Notes under the pieces: generated by a model
Database searches by the model: none
What the model was told of the DNA's origin: nothing
What the model saw: only the letters and a program-made list of their open reading frames with translations
Virus record (IMG/VR): IMGVR_UViG_3300046010_011996
Location: 1 to 21,469 of that record
Source: a virus
Length of the DNA: 21,469 nt
Direction: 5' to 3' (one strand)
In this document: piece after piece, positions 7,115 to 12,869 of the stretch
How positions within the stretch are numbered: position 1 is the first letter of the stretch
Layout of the letters: each line of letters opens with the position of its first letter
Made by a program: the position numbers and the translations under genes

Positions 7115-7147
7115 AATTTATTAAATTGGGTTTTAAATGTTAATTAA

Positions 7148-7567
7148 TTAAGCGCTTTTTTTGCTGAGAAATTTAAACGGTATATCGTGTTCCATAAATT
7201 TAGCGCCCTGCTCCATGTTGTACGACAACTCACCTAGCTTTACACCAGTCAATGTATCTGTGCGTAAAACTCTAGCCCCACGTGGCATATAAGCAGCTGT
7301 GATTACTAAGCCCGATACATCACATATATCATCAAAGCCTAACAAACGTGCAGCAGTATTTAATGCGTCGAGTTCATTTTTTAATAGCTTTATACTACCC
7401 TCATAGGTGTTATTACCACTTTGTATGCCAATGGGCTCGCGGCCTGCTGCATGTAAAGGCTCATCATCAGGGGTTTTTTTGTACATGATGTTACGTACTC
7501 CAGTGATGGTTTTACCATCTATCGCTATTTTAAGGTCGGCCCATTCAGACTCTTTTAAATAATTCAT
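7148..7567 (-). CDS. Tail tube protein
   Basis: This 139-residue protein directly follows the sheath gene and precedes the chaperone, the standard position for the tube of contractile phages. It has the size and strand pattern of a tube subunit: an N-terminal 'ADLKIAIDGKTITGVRNIMYKK' hairpin, a loop with HAAGREPIGIQSG, a strand pair YEGSIKLLKNELDAL, a helix, and a C-terminal 'GVKLGELSYNMEQGAKFMEHDIPFKFL' strand pair, similar to the Bacteroidota phage tube family. Hexamers stack around the tape measure inside the sheath. The leader before ATG carries the AATACAATACA motif, shared in part with the sheath leader. No unusual feature is seen. Confidence 0.8.
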   Translation of the reverse strand: MNYLKESEWADLKIAIDGKTITGVRNIMYKKTPDDEPLHAAGREPIGIQSGNNTYEGSIKLLKNELDALNTAARLLGFDDICDVSGLVITAAYMPRGARVLRTDTLTGVKLGELSYNMEQGAKFMEHDIPFKFLSKKSA

Positions 7568-7597: not shown

Positions 7598-8977
7598 TTA
7601 ATTAAATGGATTGTTTAAGCCTAACAAAATGTTTATCTTTCTCATGTACCCAAATGGAGTTACACTCTCTTGTACATCTAGCTTACCAGTGGCTAAAATA
7701 TTTTGATTAGGATCTATAAGCGCATCAAAGCCACTCAACTCACCAGCCATAGCGGTACGTACAGTGTACTCTATTTTACCCTCTAAAGCTTTTATTACCT
7801 CAGGGCTAATTTTACCACTTGCCGTATCAATAGGCACACTCTCATGAAGCTCATCCACATACACCTGGTAACTTATACGCTGGCATTTATCTACCACACG
7901 GCCACTTACCAAGTTTGTGTAATCATCGGTTTGCAAAGTACACATAGGATCATCACTTAAATAATAACCAGTACGCTGGTTATAGCTAGTTAAAGTAATG
8001 GCTCCTCTAAATATTAATACATCGCGTTGTGTAAATGCCTCGCTACGCACTGAGCCAATAAACGCATCATTAATACCTACTAATGGCCCATCTTTTACGC
8101 GAGCGATGCTAGTACTTACTGGCACTTTTGCCACACGCCCTAGTACTAAACCTACAGCAGCATTATTACTAGTGTTATTAGTATCGCCACATATAATGCC
8201 TACTGCATTGTTGCTAAGCGCTTTTAAATCTTGTGGCACATTGGAAGTTACATCTAAACGCCCACCCAATAATATACGTATTGGCTCTTGTATAGCTCTG
8301 TAAGCATTTACCATGGCAGTAGCTCCTGCCACAGCAGCTATTACATCTGCTCTAAAAAAGTTTGACGGTACCGATGCTTCACCAATCGGGTTACGAACTA
8401 CACCTAATACTTTAATTTCACCCTGAGCAAAATCTAGCAATCTTTTAGCCCCATTCGCATTAGTATTATCTACAGTTTGCACCATGGTTTGCGTTTCGGC
8501 CACAAGCAATAAATAAAGCAATGCACCTGTGCCAGCTTCATTATAAAACTCAGTTACATGTTTAAGTGCATATGCATCCGTAACAGATCGAGTTGATGTG
8601 GTAAGCGTACCACTGGTAGTACCTGCATTTAAGCAGGTAATAGTAAATGTAGTAGGCGTTACTACCGTAACCACATAATTACCCACAGGTATAGCCAATA
8701 CTTCCGATGTAACCGAAATAGTTACTGAATCGCCAGTAGATAAGCCGTGTGCCGATGGTGTGGTAATGGTAGCAGTGGTAGTTACTCTAGCCCATGTACT
8801 GGCTAATAAGGCAAATGCTATATTGGTAAAATCAGCAATGCTAGTTAATAGCACCGGTGTGTTTAGTATTGCATTATTTGCTAAGCCAGTGCATACTAAG
8901 CCTACTGTGCCATCTTTTACCTGAGGGGTTTGGCCCATTGAGCCGTTTCTAATTGTTATACTTACACCTGGTTGCAT
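7598..8977 (-). CDS. Contractile tail sheath protein (DUF2586-like) with inserted beta domain
   Basis: This 459-residue protein resembles the DUF2586 sheath family of Bacteroidota phages. The start MQPGVSITIRNGSMG, the 'ALKHVTEFYNEAGTGALLYLLLV' segment, the central AFIGSVRSEAFTQRDVLIFRG and the C-terminal 'SVTPFGYMRKINILLGLNNPFN' strand support this. Residues 60-124 interrupt the first domain with a Thr/Val-rich beta module that also occurs in the major capsid protein of this window. Without it the protein would be about 390 residues. The sheath contracts around the tube to drive injection. The gene follows the acidic SAP/LEM-like gene by 52 bases and is followed by the tube gene. Confidence 0.88.
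   Translation of the reverse strand: MQPGVSITIRNGSMGQTPQVKDGTVGLVCTGLANNAILNTPVLLTSIADFTNIAFALLASTWARVTTTATITTPSAHGLSTGDSVTISVTSEVLAIPVGNYVVTVVTPTTFTITCLNAGTTSGTLTTSTRSVTDAYALKHVTEFYNEAGTGALLYLLLVAETQTMVQTVDNTNANGAKRLLDFAQGEIKVLGVVRNPIGEASVPSNFFRADVIAAVAGATAMVNAYRAIQEPIRILLGGRLDVTSNVPQDLKALSNNAVGIICGDTNNTSNNAAVGLVLGRVAKVPVSTSIARVKDGPLVGINDAFIGSVRSEAFTQRDVLIFRGAITLTSYNQRTGYYLSDDPMCTLQTDDYTNLVSGRVVDKCQRISYQVYVDELHESVPIDTASGKISPEVIKALEGKIEYTVRTAMAGELSGFDALIDPNQNILATGKLDVQESVTPFGYMRKINILLGLNNPFN
8606..8800 (-). other. Inserted beta-rich domain, sheath copy
   Basis: Residues 60-124 of the sheath form a Thr-rich, strand-rich module that starts with STWAR, continues with TTTATITTP, HGL, TG, an AIP-G-Y segment and TFT, and ends TCLNAG..SGT. 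It aligns without gaps to the capsid copy at 10696-10890, with 42 of 65 residues identical by hand count. Domains of this pattern (a 'TATITTPxxHGLxTGD' turn followed by strands) recur in phage virion proteins and are probably Ig-like or similar beta sandwiches. It lies near the sheath N-terminus, between FTNI and the YALKHVTEFYNEAG segment, and is likely on the outer surface. Confidence 0.8.
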
Positions 8978-9029
8978 TGTATTGTTTATTTAAGTTTTTT
9001 TAAAAGGGTTTTAAATGAGCTTTGATTAA

Positions 9030-9461
9030 TTAATTAGCAGCATCAGCAGCTACAAGCAAAGCTATAAGTGCATCTTTTCGTGTAGCCCCATTCATAGGTA
9101 TTGTACGCTCCACACATAACGCTTTAAGCGCTGCTACTGTCATATCATCATATGGCGTAGGTTCAGGCAGATCCTCAGTGTTATTAACCTCATCAGCAAC
9201 CTCATCTACAAACTCATTCACAGGCGTATCATCAATATAAGCTCCAGTAGTTTCACCTAATGGTGTTTCAGTAACATCAGCGGCTACTGCATCTGCCAAC
9301 TGCCCACCACGTTCAACTTTTTGTATATCGAGGTTGCCTAATTTTTTCCCATAGGCTTTAGCATCTTCTATACTTTTAAAAGCTGTGCTATCAGCAGTCC
9401 AATAGATTGTATCTACATCAGGATAATTTTCAAAAAGGTTGTTTAAATATTCTTGTGTCAT
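9030..9461 (-). CDS. Acidic protein with SAP/LEM-like C-terminus
   Basis: This 143-residue protein is unassigned. Residues 1-48 form a compact N-terminal domain with a 'YPDVDTIYWTADSTAFKS' segment, as seen in a Bacteroidota phage gene next to the sheath. Residues 50-105 are a low-complexity, Asp/Glu-rich linker. Residues 106-138 (MTVAALKALCVERTIPMNG followed by ATRKDALIALLV) match the short helix-loop-helix HeH/LEM/SAP fold of many small phage head-tail proteins. By position it could be a head-tail joining or sheath-associated accessory protein, but its function is not known. The leader has two A-runs on the coding strand, and a 20-bp palindrome lies about 64 bases upstream of the start. Confidence 0.65.
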   Translation of the reverse strand: MTQEYLNNLFENYPDVDTIYWTADSTAFKSIEDAKAYGKKLGNLDIQKVERGGQLADAVAADVTETPLGETTGAYIDDTPVNEFVDEVADEVNNTEDLPEPTPYDDMTVAALKALCVERTIPMNGATRKDALIALLVAADAAN

Positions 9462-9524
9462 GAGTATTTTTTTTTTGTTTTTTTTGTTTAATTAAAGGCT
9501 GCTTTTATAGCCCCATGTTGGCCA

Positions 9525-9544
9525 TGTTTACCAATTGGTAAACA
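9525..9544. repeat. Perfect 20-bp palindrome
   Basis: The sequence TGTTTACCAATTGGTAAACA reads the same on both strands. It lies in a 147-base gene-free stretch between the amidase and the acidic SAP/LEM-like gene, about 64 bases before the latter's start. As RNA it could form an 8-bp stem with an AATT loop, but no T-run follows it on the transcribed strand, so it looks more like a dimeric protein operator than a terminator. No second copy was seen in the window. Role inferred. Confidence 0.6.
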
Positions 9545-9608
9545 CACCACATGAGGATTGGGATAGCAACAGCATTTTAGGTAATATGATTGTGTTAGTT
9601 TTCAAAGT

Positions 9609-10085
9609 TTATTGAATGTTTTTGTATTCCGGTATCGCATAAAAGCATGGGCACATTTTAACCCATTCGTTAGGCTCCACTACACCATCTTTATCAAGAT
9701 CAGGGCTTAAATCTCTATGCCCTAATATCATAGCTGTAGGGTGCAATTTCTTTAATTGAGTAAGTACACGTGTAAGCTCTGCTTTTTGCTCGTTTGTGCG
9801 TGTATCACCTGCTAGTATCTTTCTGCCATTTCTTACAATTCCACCCATGTAACTAACATGTATGGATTGCGAGTTATGACCAGCCACCCCATTGGCAATG
9901 TTATTGAGTGGTGTAATCAAATGACTTTTACCAACACCATCTACTACTATATGATACCCATTATTTTTCCATCCGTTATCTCTAAATCCTTTAATAAGAG
10001 CTGGGATTGTTTCATTAGCCCAACCAGCAGTACAGTGCACTACTATGTACTTAATGGATCTTCTACTTTTGGTGATGGCTATCAT
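9609..10085 (-). CDS. N-acetylmuramoyl-L-alanine amidase (endolysin)
   Basis: This 158-residue protein is a zinc amidase of the Amidase_2/PGRP (T7 lysozyme-like) family and would cut the amide bond between muramic acid and the stem peptide at lysis. Visible motifs: VVHCTAG (His17), NGYHIV (Tyr44-His45), GHN at residues 69-71, a GHRDLSPD segment (His123) and KMCPCF (Cys145/147). His17, His123 and one of the two cysteines are the probable zinc ligands. Between the last two motifs lies an EF-hand-like DLDKDGVVEPNEW loop, usual in Bacteroidota phage amidases. No signal peptide is present, so it needs a holin. Its start overlaps the holin-like gene by 4 bases. Confidence 0.93.
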   Translation of the reverse strand: MIAITKSRRSIKYIVVHCTAGWANETIPALIKGFRDNGWKNNGYHIVVDGVGKSHLITPLNNIANGVAGHNSQSIHVSYMGGIVRNGRKILAGDTRTNEQKAELTRVLTQLKKLHPTAMILGHRDLSPDLDKDGVVEPNEWVKMCPCFYAIPEYKNIQ

Positions 10086-10336
10086 TTTTTATACTTAAAT
10101 TCTGATAATATTTCGGTTACACCTTGCATTACAGAGGTATTGTTCTTAATCACTTCGCTCATTTCTTTTCTATCTTCACTTAGGTAGGTATCCATACGAT
10201 CCTGCACCTTGGTAATTCGCTTCCATAGTAGCCAACTAATAGTAACTAGCAGCACAATGGTAAACAACTGATCTGTAAGCCTGGTAAGTAATGTACTGGC
10301 AGGGTCTATTGCAATTTGTAATAAAATAGCTAGCAT
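10082..10336 (-). CDS. Holin-like membrane protein
   Basis: This 84-residue protein has one clear membrane segment at about residues 21-39 (QLFTIVLLVTISWLLW), preceded by a moderately hydrophobic N-terminus and followed by a charged, coiled-coil-prone cytoplasmic tail (KRITKVQDRMDTYLSEDRKEM). Size, one-helix topology and a 4-base overlap with the endolysin gene fit a BhlA-type holin that releases the amidase. A spanin or another membrane accessory is possible. The leader is a long A-run, and a strong hairpin at 10367-10405 separates it from the capsid gene. Confidence 0.7.
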   Translation of the reverse strand: MLAILLQIAIDPASTLLTRLTDQLFTIVLLVTISWLLWKRITKVQDRMDTYLSEDRKEMSEVIKNNTSVMQGVTEILSEFKYKK

Positions 10337-10366
10337 TTATAATTTTTTCTTTTTTTTTTAACCTTT

Positions 10367-10405
10367 GCTAGGAGGTGGTGGCTTTTACCTCACCACCTAT
10401 CTAGC
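10367..10405 (-). terminator. Hairpin between capsid and holin genes (attenuator-like)
   Basis: A perfect 8-bp stem AGGTGGTG (10373-10380) with CACCACCT (10391-10398) and a 10-base loop is extended by an outer GCTAG/CTAGC stem (10367-10371 with 10401-10405) across a 1x2-base bulge. It lies 41 bases after the capsid stop and 30 bases before the holin start. No T-run follows on the minus strand (an A-run does), so it may be a partial terminator, an mRNA-stabilising 3' hairpin that favours capsid output, or a processing site. The structure is seen; the role is inferred. Confidence 0.5.
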
Positions 10406-10446
10406 TTAGGCAATTTTAACTATGAATCCAAAAAACAAAACTTATA

Positions 10447-11763
10447 TTATTGGGCTTGTACGATGGCTACAATGCCTATTCCATTTGTGTACCGCTGGCG
10501 GCCACCCATGCGCACTAAACCACTATACACATCGCCATACATTTGCGGATGGTTGGTTTGCTCAAAGAATTTAATTTCACCAAGCGCAAGCTCCACGCAA
10601 TCTTTTTGATAGCAAAACACTGCATCATTATCTGTAATAGCTCCTAATGCGCCTATAGCTCTTACAACAGGAGCAGCGTTAGCAGTATGCGAAGCAGTAC
10701 CGGATGCCCCACCTGCATTTAAGCAAGTGAATGTAAAAGTACTAGCACCTGTTACTGTAATTGTGTAAATACCTAATGGTATAGCGGCAGCATCAGAGGT
10801 TACTGTTAATTGTACATTAGTACCAGTAACTAATCCGTGTGGAGCTGGCGTGGTAATAGTTGCAGTAGTAGTAGATCTTGCCCATGTACTAGCAGTTATT
10901 GCACCACTATCGTAAGTAGCCACATTGGCTGTAGGCACAATATCAAAGCCATATAATTTAGCTATTGCACCCTCTTTCGCATCATTATACAATGAGTAAT
11001 CTTTAGCATTGGTAGCTTTTAACTCATCTTCTAACTGGCTCCACATATCAAAGCTCATTACTGCATAACGTCCTTTAGCACTTACTTTTTGCTTATCTAA
11101 AGTAACTTTTGCACGCTTTAAATCGCTTAATGTAAAACCTTTACGGTTACCAGTAGCACCAGTCATATGTGATACATAGTTTGAGCCGCTTGTACGAATA
11201 ATATTAGCAGCTCCAGCAGGGGCCCATGAATTAAGTATATTATCACATACACTTTCATTTAACGCCCCAATATGATCACCTAGTACACTAGTCATTTTAT
11301 CGTAACTAAGCTGCACAGTTGCTGCATCTTCAATTACTGTAGGATCTGTGGTGTATTCATCCAATGCATACACTACATCTGTATCATTTCTCTTTACTGC
11401 TGTAGCAGGTATGGAGGTTCTATTTTTTACTACAGTAGGCCTGCTACCTGGTTGTGGTATATGCACCACCTTGCCACTTAGTACATAACTATCTGCGCGA
11501 AAACTATTCTTTAAAAACTCGATGCCTTTAAAAAGGTTATCGGCAATGTACTCAGTCCAAATTTCTACTTCTACAGCGCGAAATACAAAGGGGGTTTGAA
11601 ATAATTTTGTGATGTGGATATATGCCCCATATGCCATGCCCAAAACACCTGGCACAATGGCTAAAGGGAAATTTTGTACAATTTCGGAAGCATGTACACT
11701 AACTGGCGAAGCAAACAAAAGTGCAGCGCTAAGCAATACGATGAGATTTACTATTTTTTTCAT
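10447..11763 (-). CDS. Major capsid protein with signal-peptide-like start and inserted beta domain
   Basis: This 438-residue protein follows the protease/scaffold gene and has the Bacteroidota Mu-like capsid pattern: 'AVEVEIWTEYIADNLFKG' (63 onwards), 'LSGKVVHIPQPGSRP', a helix-rich core with GDHIGALNESVCDNIL and 'YAVMSFDMWSQLEDEL', and a C-terminal 'FFEQTNHPQMYGDVYSGLVRMGGR'. Residues 292-356 are an inserted beta-rich module also found in the sheath. Residues 1-25 look like a Sec signal peptide (KK, hydrophobic core, VHA before Ser26), followed by a second hydrophobic segment at 32-55. The real start seems to be the first ATG, since a long A-run leader precedes it. A start at Met43 would remove the signal. 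Capsomers of this protein form the head. Confidence 0.88.
   Translation of the reverse strand: MKKIVNLIVLLSAALLFASPVSVHASEIVQNFPLAIVPGVLGMAYGAYIHITKLFQTPFVFRAVEVEIWTEYIADNLFKGIEFLKNSFRADSYVLSGKVVHIPQPGSRPTVVKNRTSIPATAVKRNDTDVVYALDEYTTDPTVIEDAATVQLSYDKMTSVLGDHIGALNESVCDNILNSWAPAGAANIIRTSGSNYVSHMTGATGNRKGFTLSDLKRAKVTLDKQKVSAKGRYAVMSFDMWSQLEDELKATNAKDYSLYNDAKEGAIAKLYGFDIVPTANVATYDSGAITASTWARSTTTATITTPAPHGLVTGTNVQLTVTSDAAAIPLGIYTITVTGASTFTFTCLNAGGASGTASHTANAAPVVRAIGALGAITDNDAVFCYQKDCVELALGEIKFFEQTNHPQMYGDVYSGLVRMGGRQRYTNGIGIVAIVQAQ
10696..10890 (-). other. Inserted beta-rich domain, capsid copy
   Basis: Residues 292-356 of the capsid protein form the same Thr-rich module as in the sheath (8606-8800), starting at STWAR and ending at SGT, 65 residues, no gaps. 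It sits after a 'VPTANVATYDSGAI' segment and before 'APVVRAIGALGAITDNDAVF', where the capsid fold continues, so it looks like a loop insertion. A surface position on the capsid is inferred. Some stretches are nearly identical in DNA, for example CCTGCATTTAAGCA and CCCATGTACT, spaced identically in the two copies. Confidence 0.8.
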
Positions 11764-11816: not shown

Positions 11817-12302
11817 TTATGCTTGGGGTTCCTTGCCGTATTGCTCTTTAAATATGTGATTGTAATGAGCAGGGTGCATTTGCTTAATCACAGCTAACTT
11901 GCCAGCTTTGTGCGCTTCTTTGTAGCTTAGTTTTAGCAATGGATCACTTGCATCAGTGCCAGCACCTACAAGATTTTGCAACGTGGGTACAGTTGGCATA
12001 GTATCAAACAACTGCTTTAGGTTTTCAAGATTTGTTTTACCCATTTGCTTGTAAAATGGCTTTTGCGCATCAGTAATTTTGCGACTAGATACAGCGCCAT
12101 CTACTACAGCATCTACCTCTGCATCCATAGCCGCTTGTTGCAAAGTGCCTATAGTATCATTTAAGGTAACAATGGTTGCAGCATGCTCATCAGCTTGATC
12201 TGCTTTTGTTTTCAGCTCTTGTAGCTTACTCATTAATTGCTCAGGTGAGCCATCTTTGGTTAGGCCCACTAATAAAAGCATTGGTATTAATTGCTCTTTC
12301 AT
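11817..12302 (-). CDS. Possible internal-start scaffold protein (Mu gpZ-like)
   Basis: Inside the protease gene, ATG 12300-12302 would start a 161-residue C-terminal product, MKEQLIPMLLLVGL onwards, that contains only the scaffold-like half. The bases just before it (AATTTAAACAATACCGAA) look like the AT-rich leaders of other genes here (compare AAACAATACA before the sheath ATG). In Mu, protease gpI and scaffold gpZ are made from nested in-frame starts, so the same is plausible. This is a candidate, not a certain gene. The alternative is that the whole protein is cleaved. Confidence 0.4.
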   Translation of the reverse strand: MKEQLIPMLLLVGLTKDGSPEQLMSKLQELKTKADQADEHAATIVTLNDTIGTLQQAAMDAEVDAVVDGAVSSRKITDAQKPFYKQMGKTNLENLKQLFDTMPTVPTLQNLVGAGTDASDPLLKLSYKEAHKAGKLAVIKQMHPAHYNHIFKEQYGKEPQA

Positions 12303-12806
12303 TTCGGTATTGTTTAAATTTTTAATTGATGGAATAATGTGAGTAATATCTGTATCGCCTGAATCACTTAGTAGTAACATTTCACCATTATGGTATAAGC
12401 CTAGTGCATTATCATCACCACCTATATCTACTATAGATGCTTCTTTTAATTTGCCTCTAGTTACAGTAGCTAATATTTGACCTGGTAAAATATCTTCAAT
12501 TTCACTACTGTAAGCAATAGGCTCTATACCACTGCTGCACATGTTTAACGATCCTTCTTCTACCTGCTTGTAATACAGTTGTGCATCATCTTTATCATCA
12601 GTAAAATAAGGCACACCGGTAATGTTGCCATCAGCTTCTAACTTCACATCTTGCCAGTGCCCAATTACATTACCACGCACATGCATGTATAGCAATACTG
12701 GATTTTTTTTAAATTGGGTTAGATCGATGCCTGATGTATTGTATCTAAAGCCATAGTTATTAACCTGGTTACTTACAATTACAAACTTTTTACTACTTTT
12801 TGGCAT
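11817..12806 (-). CDS. Prohead protease with scaffold domain (Mu gpI-like)
   Basis: The preferred start is ATG 12804-12806 (MPKSSKKFVIVSN), since the upstream 21 residues from 12869 do not look like the family. The product is 329 residues. Residues 1-150 match the HK97-type U35 prohead protease: strands around FVIVSN, a 'NPVLLYMH' segment with candidate catalytic His, 'GSLNMCSSGIEP' with the Ser, and 'LKEASIVDIGGDDNAL'. Residues 170-329 form a helical scaffold-like domain (coiled coil around 'SKLQELKTKADQADEH', then a 'SSRKITDAQKPFYKQMGKTNL' turn, usual for Mu-type scaffold). It processes the prohead before packaging. An ATG at 12300-12302 may start a separate scaffold. Confidence 0.85.
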   Translation of the reverse strand: MPKSSKKFVIVSNQVNNYGFRYNTSGIDLTQFKKNPVLLYMHVRGNVIGHWQDVKLEADGNITGVPYFTDDKDDAQLYYKQVEEGSLNMCSSGIEPIAYSSEIEDILPGQILATVTRGKLKEASIVDIGGDDNALGLYHNGEMLLLSDSGDTDITHIIPSIKNLNNTEMKEQLIPMLLLVGLTKDGSPEQLMSKLQELKTKADQADEHAATIVTLNDTIGTLQQAAMDAEVDAVVDGAVSSRKITDAQKPFYKQMGKTNLENLKQLFDTMPTVPTLQNLVGAGTDASDPLLKLSYKEAHKAGKLAVIKQMHPAHYNHIFKEQYGKEPQA

Positions 12807-12869
12807 GCTCGAAATTTTATAAACTACTCTTAGCGATGTAAAAGTGCAGCGTGCAATTATGCTATGCAA

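Follow-up and report, generated by a model that had tools for sequence, protein, structure and literature searches.

Known accessory domains of phage virions

Accessory domains are known from phage capsids, tail tubes and tail sheaths, and phage Douge carries them on head and tail together. Its immunoglobulin-like (Ig-like) domains, 919 per virion, are located on the capsid and tail tube and bind mycobacterial glycans, and parallel, side-on attachment has been proposed (PMC13033339). In phages P22 and CUS-3, the HK97-fold coat protein contains the I-domain, a six-stranded beta-barrel (PMC11243222), which in P22 comprises residues 222–345 and is inserted in the A-domain (PMC9965877). Multi-domain tail sheaths, mostly from large phages, bear accessory beta domains, mostly Ig-like, that are inserted in the sheath core away from the tube (PMC9230969). 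Here, we describe a module of about 65 residues that is present in both the major capsid protein and the contractile tail sheath encoded by the IMG/VR virus record IMGVR_UViG_3300046010_011996, whose whole analysed stretch of 21,469 bases is referred to as the window.

As in Douge, accessory beta domains occur on the most abundant head protein and on a tail-shaft protein of one virion. In Douge, however, the fold is Ig-like, the carrier is a non-contractile tail tube and binding was measured, whereas here the predicted fold is a barrel, the carrier is a contractile sheath and the function is proposed by analogy. The sheath insertion resembles those of multi-domain sheaths, whose accessory domains have not been reported as common with the capsid. 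No report of one module common to capsid and sheath was found in the open-access literature. As far as this literature was searched, a sequence-recognisable module on both a capsid and a contractile sheath is apparently new. So are its predicted barrel fold and its insertion, at the I-domain site, into a capsid family that has no I-domains.

The module in the capsid and sheath proteins

The window contains head and tail genes from a phage with a contractile tail, termed Bacteroidota-type here; homologues of its capsid protein are the capsids of Porphyromonas, Flavobacterium and Elizabethkingia phages. The two genes and their inserted segments were as follows (AF2, AlphaFold2; pLDDT, predicted local distance difference test).

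10447–11763, minus strand: major capsid protein, HK97 fold, 438 residues (Phage_capsid_2, PF19821, E 7e-7; phrog_267, E 1e-28)
10678–10902, minus strand: inserted segment of the capsid protein, residues 288–362, about 75–77 residues, predicted barrel module plus short linkers (absent from 147 other capsids; boundaries from mapping to residues 227/228 of the relative L024)
10696–10890, minus strand: module core, capsid copy, residues 292–356 (AF2 pLDDT about 79–91; matches endosialidase barrels 3ju4, 1v0e and 4hiz)
7598–8977, minus strand: contractile tail sheath, 459 residues (DUF2586, PF10758, E 2e-40; phrog_907, E 4e-32)
8585–8809, minus strand: inserted segment of the sheath, about residues 57–131, net about 74 residues, module plus linkers (absent from 80 other sheaths)
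8606–8800, minus strand: module core, sheath copy, residues 60–124 (E1_FCCH, E 0.004, and End_beta_barrel, E 0.005, both under curated cut-offs; confident in the AF2 model)

The two cores aligned without gaps and were identical at 42 of 65 residues; on recount, the coordinates, frame and identity given in an earlier note on this DNA were all correct. The best ungapped BLOSUM62 score between the copies was 227, whereas none of 20 shuffles exceeded 43; chance similarity is thereby ruled out. At the DNA level, 128 of 195 bases (66%) were identical. An exact 15-mer, ACCTGCATTTAAGCA, and the block CCCATGTACT occur in both copies at an offset of 2090 bases; measured between their outer edges, the two blocks cover 179 bases. 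No third copy was present in the window. Both open reading frames (ORFs) were intact, and a second IMG/VR contig, possibly derived from a related sample, matched at 100% identity along 12,671 bases that take in both genes; this speaks against a chimeric assembly or another assembly artefact. Around its insert, the sheath retained the core profile and fold of its family (PF10758, 139.9 bits against a cut-off of 26.4; matches to sheath structures at Z 18–25).

Capsid relatives were gathered from bacterial genomes, viral contigs and named Porphyromonas, Flavobacterium and Elizabethkingia phages. The alignments comprised 148 distinct capsids and 81 distinct sheaths, window included, and loop length was measured between fixed anchors. 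The capsid site held 99 residues in the window, compared with 20–24 in 135 of the 148 sequences; the next longest loop had 48 residues of unrelated sequence. The sheath site held 98 residues, compared with 20–29 in 75 of the 81 sequences, and the remaining lengths were 31 (one sequence), 63 (two rumen sequences), an unrelated stretch of 145 residues (one) and none (one partial ORF). The module was found in none of the 147 other distinct capsids and none of the 80 other distinct sheaths, and among 85 loci with both genes, capsid–sheath similarity was seen only in this phage and its identical contig. Both segments are true insertions into otherwise insert-free families. The insert-free relatives of each protein and the AF2 models bear out the description in the earlier note, in which both proteins contain an inserted, separate beta domain and the host fold continues beyond it. 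This large set of relatives provides a baseline for a shared capsid–sheath domain, and the insertions mark two loops as tolerating a 75-residue domain.

Other insertions were observed at these sites. A related sheath (L004:674-2200) carries a different insert of approximately 120 residues in the same loop, without a Pfam match, and the loop appears to be an insertion hotspot. The two rumen phages (L080 and L083) have both sites expanded, to 48 residues in the capsid and 63 in the sheath; these sequences are related neither to one another nor to the module.

Predicted fold

The AF2 models contained a confident six-strand module in each protein (pLDDT mostly 70–93) between flanking linkers with values below 50. 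In a structural comparison of the capsid model, several solved chains superposed on residues 289–362 only. These were the endosialidase barrels of K1F (3ju4 and 1v0e, 21% identity) and phi92 (4hiz, 27% identity), with Z 8.2–8.3 and a root-mean-square deviation (rmsd) of 2.0 Å over 70–71 residues, the FCCH barrel of Uba6 (Z 8.0–8.1) and a FCWL1 head–tail interface protein (9jlf_E, residues 17–96; Z 7.9). Although a Z near 8 can be at background level for whole models, the barrel match was credited because the exact boundaries, the 2.0 Å rmsd and independent sequence evidence coincide. In a search of the PDB, the module profile matched 4hiz at E 2.8e-4, and it located the K1F barrel at 442–486. 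Conversely, the endosialidase barrel family PF12195 matched 9 of 14 module members at E ≤0.1 (best, 7.6e-6).

On the sheath module, PF12195 scored 17.3 bits (E 0.0048) and PF16190 (E1 FCCH) 17.6 bits, below their curated cut-offs of 35 and 29.5 bits, respectively; the module was therefore not filed under either family. PF16190 exceeded its cut-off in 0 of 49 records and gave nothing outside the window in a scan of the 48 other records. A PHROGs search with the module returned a weak match to a family of no named function. No Ig-type Pfam match was obtained at E up to 10, and none was among the module-only structure matches listed.

The module is thus predicted to be an independently folding, six-stranded beta-barrel of the phage endosialidase/E1 FCCH type. 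The earlier note had pointed to an Ig-like domain and a separate beta sandwich; the separateness agrees with the models, whereas the Ig-like assignment is unsupported and the sandwich gives way to a predicted barrel. The endosialidase barrel of K1F and phi92 is likewise an insertion domain, nested in a beta-propeller, but it belongs to a tailspike enzyme rather than to a capsid or sheath and lacks the W, R, TTT and LNAG signature of the module. The FCCH barrel, in turn, is a domain of ubiquitin-pathway enzymes.

Proposed adhesive function

We propose that the module may be a mobile accessory domain, inserted in frame into two virion proteins at permissive loops. In the capsid this would be the A-domain loop that corresponds to the I-domain site of P22-type coats, and in the sheath it would be an N-terminal loop. 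By analogy with P22 and other sheaths, both copies would face outward. With hundreds of copies over head and sheath, the virion could then attach side-on, weakly and multivalently, to glycans on the host surface or in its surroundings and so stay close to the cell until baseplate engagement. Of the three sites at which its protein binds polysialic acid, the K1F barrel provides one, and the loops of this barrel affect host discrimination (PMC12632334). A module on head and sheath would give a geometry like that of Douge, and adhesion is suggested by analogy with both. Binding to surfaces or glycans by this putative adhesive module is plausible, and weak side-on adhesion to glycans is, in our estimate, somewhat probable as its function. 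If the module binds glycans, the idea of a virion covered with weak binders, as in Douge, would also apply to Bacteroidota-type phages with contractile tails and to another fold.

Several points weigh against adhesion. No glycan-binding residue was identifiable in the module, and its most conserved residues (W, R, TTT and LNAG) are not common to K1F, which leaves room for a different ligand or none. A common fold does not establish a function, and the FCCH barrel of E1 enzymes is not known to bind glycans. The A-domain part of the capsid model was also poor, with a predicted template modelling score (pTM) of 0.51 and residues 186–241 and 254–289 below 50 in pLDDT.

Distribution and origin of the module

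A search for the module in other phages, as proposed in the earlier note, found it in approximately 30 other viral contigs, in proteins of about 500–1,400 residues that commonly hold two copies approximately 168 residues apart. It recurs there in large proteins of unrelated phages, with up to approximately 62% identity. In the 18 carrier records checked whole, all copies of a record were in one reading frame, and placement in two genes was seen only in the window; none of the other records examined had the module in two genes or a domain common to capsid and sheath. A tblastn search of 50,697 phage records with the module gave no match, so that metagenomic viral contigs are the only carriers known here. 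The large carrier proteins received no name from PHROGs. The same barrel probably also accounts for local matches of approximately 70 residues to phage proteins predicted as Gp6-domain or baseplate J-like, the match length suggesting that the aligned part is the module.

A module this widespread and promiscuous may also be a near-neutral passenger, taken up by illegitimate recombination into permissive surface loops of abundant virion proteins, with little harm and no common function; the unrelated insert at the same loop of the sheath relative L004 fits such a process. An additional domain on each of the two most abundant proteins would be costly, however, and the copies have diverged under purifying selection (ratio of nonsynonymous to synonymous divergence, dN/dS, about 0.33) with the family core kept. 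We therefore regard a neutral passenger as quite improbable, and adhesion remains our preferred explanation.

The origin of the two copies is a separate matter. According to the earlier note, the module was presumably duplicated within the genome. A recent copying from one gene to the other would agree with an extra residue in TTP-x-xHGL common to both copies, with a pairwise identity between the copies (63%) above that of either to any other module and with identical codons at 24 of the 42 shared residues (16.1 ± 3.0 expected). Each copy is, however, 60–62% identical to its nearest module in unrelated phages, the sister grouping of the window copies has a support of just 0.17 and the module of an unrelated phage (L107) has 25 of 40 codons in common with the capsid copy. 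The divergence between the copies (dN 0.33, dS 0.99) is likewise large for a recent event, and no clear similarity extends outside the module. Recent duplication within the genome is unlikely because of this near-equal identity, the low support, the codon sharing with L107 and a dS of about 1. The copies may derive from a duplication of older date or from two captures out of a common phage pool, so that duplication as such is conceivable. The suggestion that the copies could seed recombination between the two genes also appears unlikely, given 66% DNA identity and a longest exact run of approximately 15 bases.

The capsid insertion site and the P22 I-domain

P22-type coats are distant relatives of the capsid family. 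The relative L024 matched PF11651 at E 8e-4, below the cut-off, and the profile of the capsid family matched that of the P22 family at E 1.3e-4 across 214 columns. Only with the family profile was the match significant, as a single-sequence hhalign comparison gave E 0.38, which is not significant overall. A scan of viral contigs for P22 coats returned mostly near-identical sequences, and diverse coats were taken from a phage collection. The insertion in the window capsid mapped between P22 residues 222 and 224 of this HK97-fold coat, at 223/224 in the single-sequence alignment and at 222/223 in the profile alignment. On this sequence mapping, the module sits in the A-domain loop, within approximately 2 residues of the P22-type I-domain site.

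The module and the I-domain also showed weak profile similarity over the motif T-x-T-x-x-x-HGL-x-x-GD. The score was 25.3 over 18–46 columns (hhalign probability, 39%), against at most 19.5 in 200 column shuffles and 13.8 for the reversed profile, and only windows of the P22-family alignment that cover this part of the I-domain scored 25–27. This short motif may hint at a common ancestry. The I-domain, however, has approximately 124 residues with D- and S-loops of approximately 16 residues each, is present in every P22-type coat aligned and has known roles in folding and assembly, whereas the inserted segment has approximately 75 residues, is absent from all relatives and is common to the sheath; its 65-residue core is too small for both loops. 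The I-domains of the Sortsne and Lumpael coats (L300 and L301) contain a GHGL-x-x-GD motif resembling the module, which offers a lead on I-domain ancestry.

The location raises the main rival to adhesion, structural reinforcement, in which the capsid barrel would aid subunit folding, stability or size as the P22 I-domain does and the sheath barrel would brace its neighbours, with glycans irrelevant. A barrel at the site where P22 has a six-stranded barrel of its own, a module–I-domain score exceeding those of all shuffles and the proposal that extra domains cement the sheath in other phages (PMC9230969) are in line with this idea. The 147 other capsids and 80 other sheaths nonetheless do without the module, the low-confidence linkers on both sides suggest loose attachment and the recurrence of the module in unrelated large proteins is easier to reconcile with a generic accessory role than with two purpose-built interfaces. 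Reinforcement appears to us rather unlikely for these insertions, and glycan adhesion is retained as the preferred function.

The position also makes the origin of coat-protein insertion domains testable. P22-type I-domains might have begun as captured mobile barrels of this superfamily, and the present phage might exemplify such a capture: a capsid family that lacks I-domains would have received a barrel at their usual site, and the same barrel on the sheath would make head and sheath one uniform adhesive surface. This scenario is speculative, and we regard it as rather unlikely.

Gene context and additional observations

The plus strand of the window encodes the terminase and portal, and the minus strand encodes the head protease, capsid, lysis genes, sheath, tube, tape measure and baseplate. 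The genes adjoining those that carry the module were as follows.

7148–7567, minus strand: tail protein adjoining the sheath, probable tail tube judging from its position (phrog_9206 and phrog_4579)
11817–12869, minus strand: head maturation protease/scaffold adjoining the capsid gene (phrog_11321 and phrog_328)

The best PHROG of the probable tail-tube gene, phrog_9206, is labelled 'major head protein', and this family is perhaps mislabelled. AT-rich repeats of 35 bases, 71–74% alike, were observed at 963–997, 7117–7151 and 8995–9029, mostly in gaps between tail genes; they could be regulatory or due to chance.

Residues 1–62 of the capsid protein (11578–11763, minus strand) form a strongly hydrophobic, signal-peptide-like extension ahead of the core. 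N-terminal extensions of 40–90 residues were present in 65 of the 148 distinct capsids (e.g., L138, L088 and L196), 63 of which contained a hydrophobic stretch of 18 residues, and 77 of the 148 began within 10 residues of the core. Such a hydrophobic extension is odd for an HK97-fold capsid and possibly represents a membrane-targeted prodomain or a dual-start gene.

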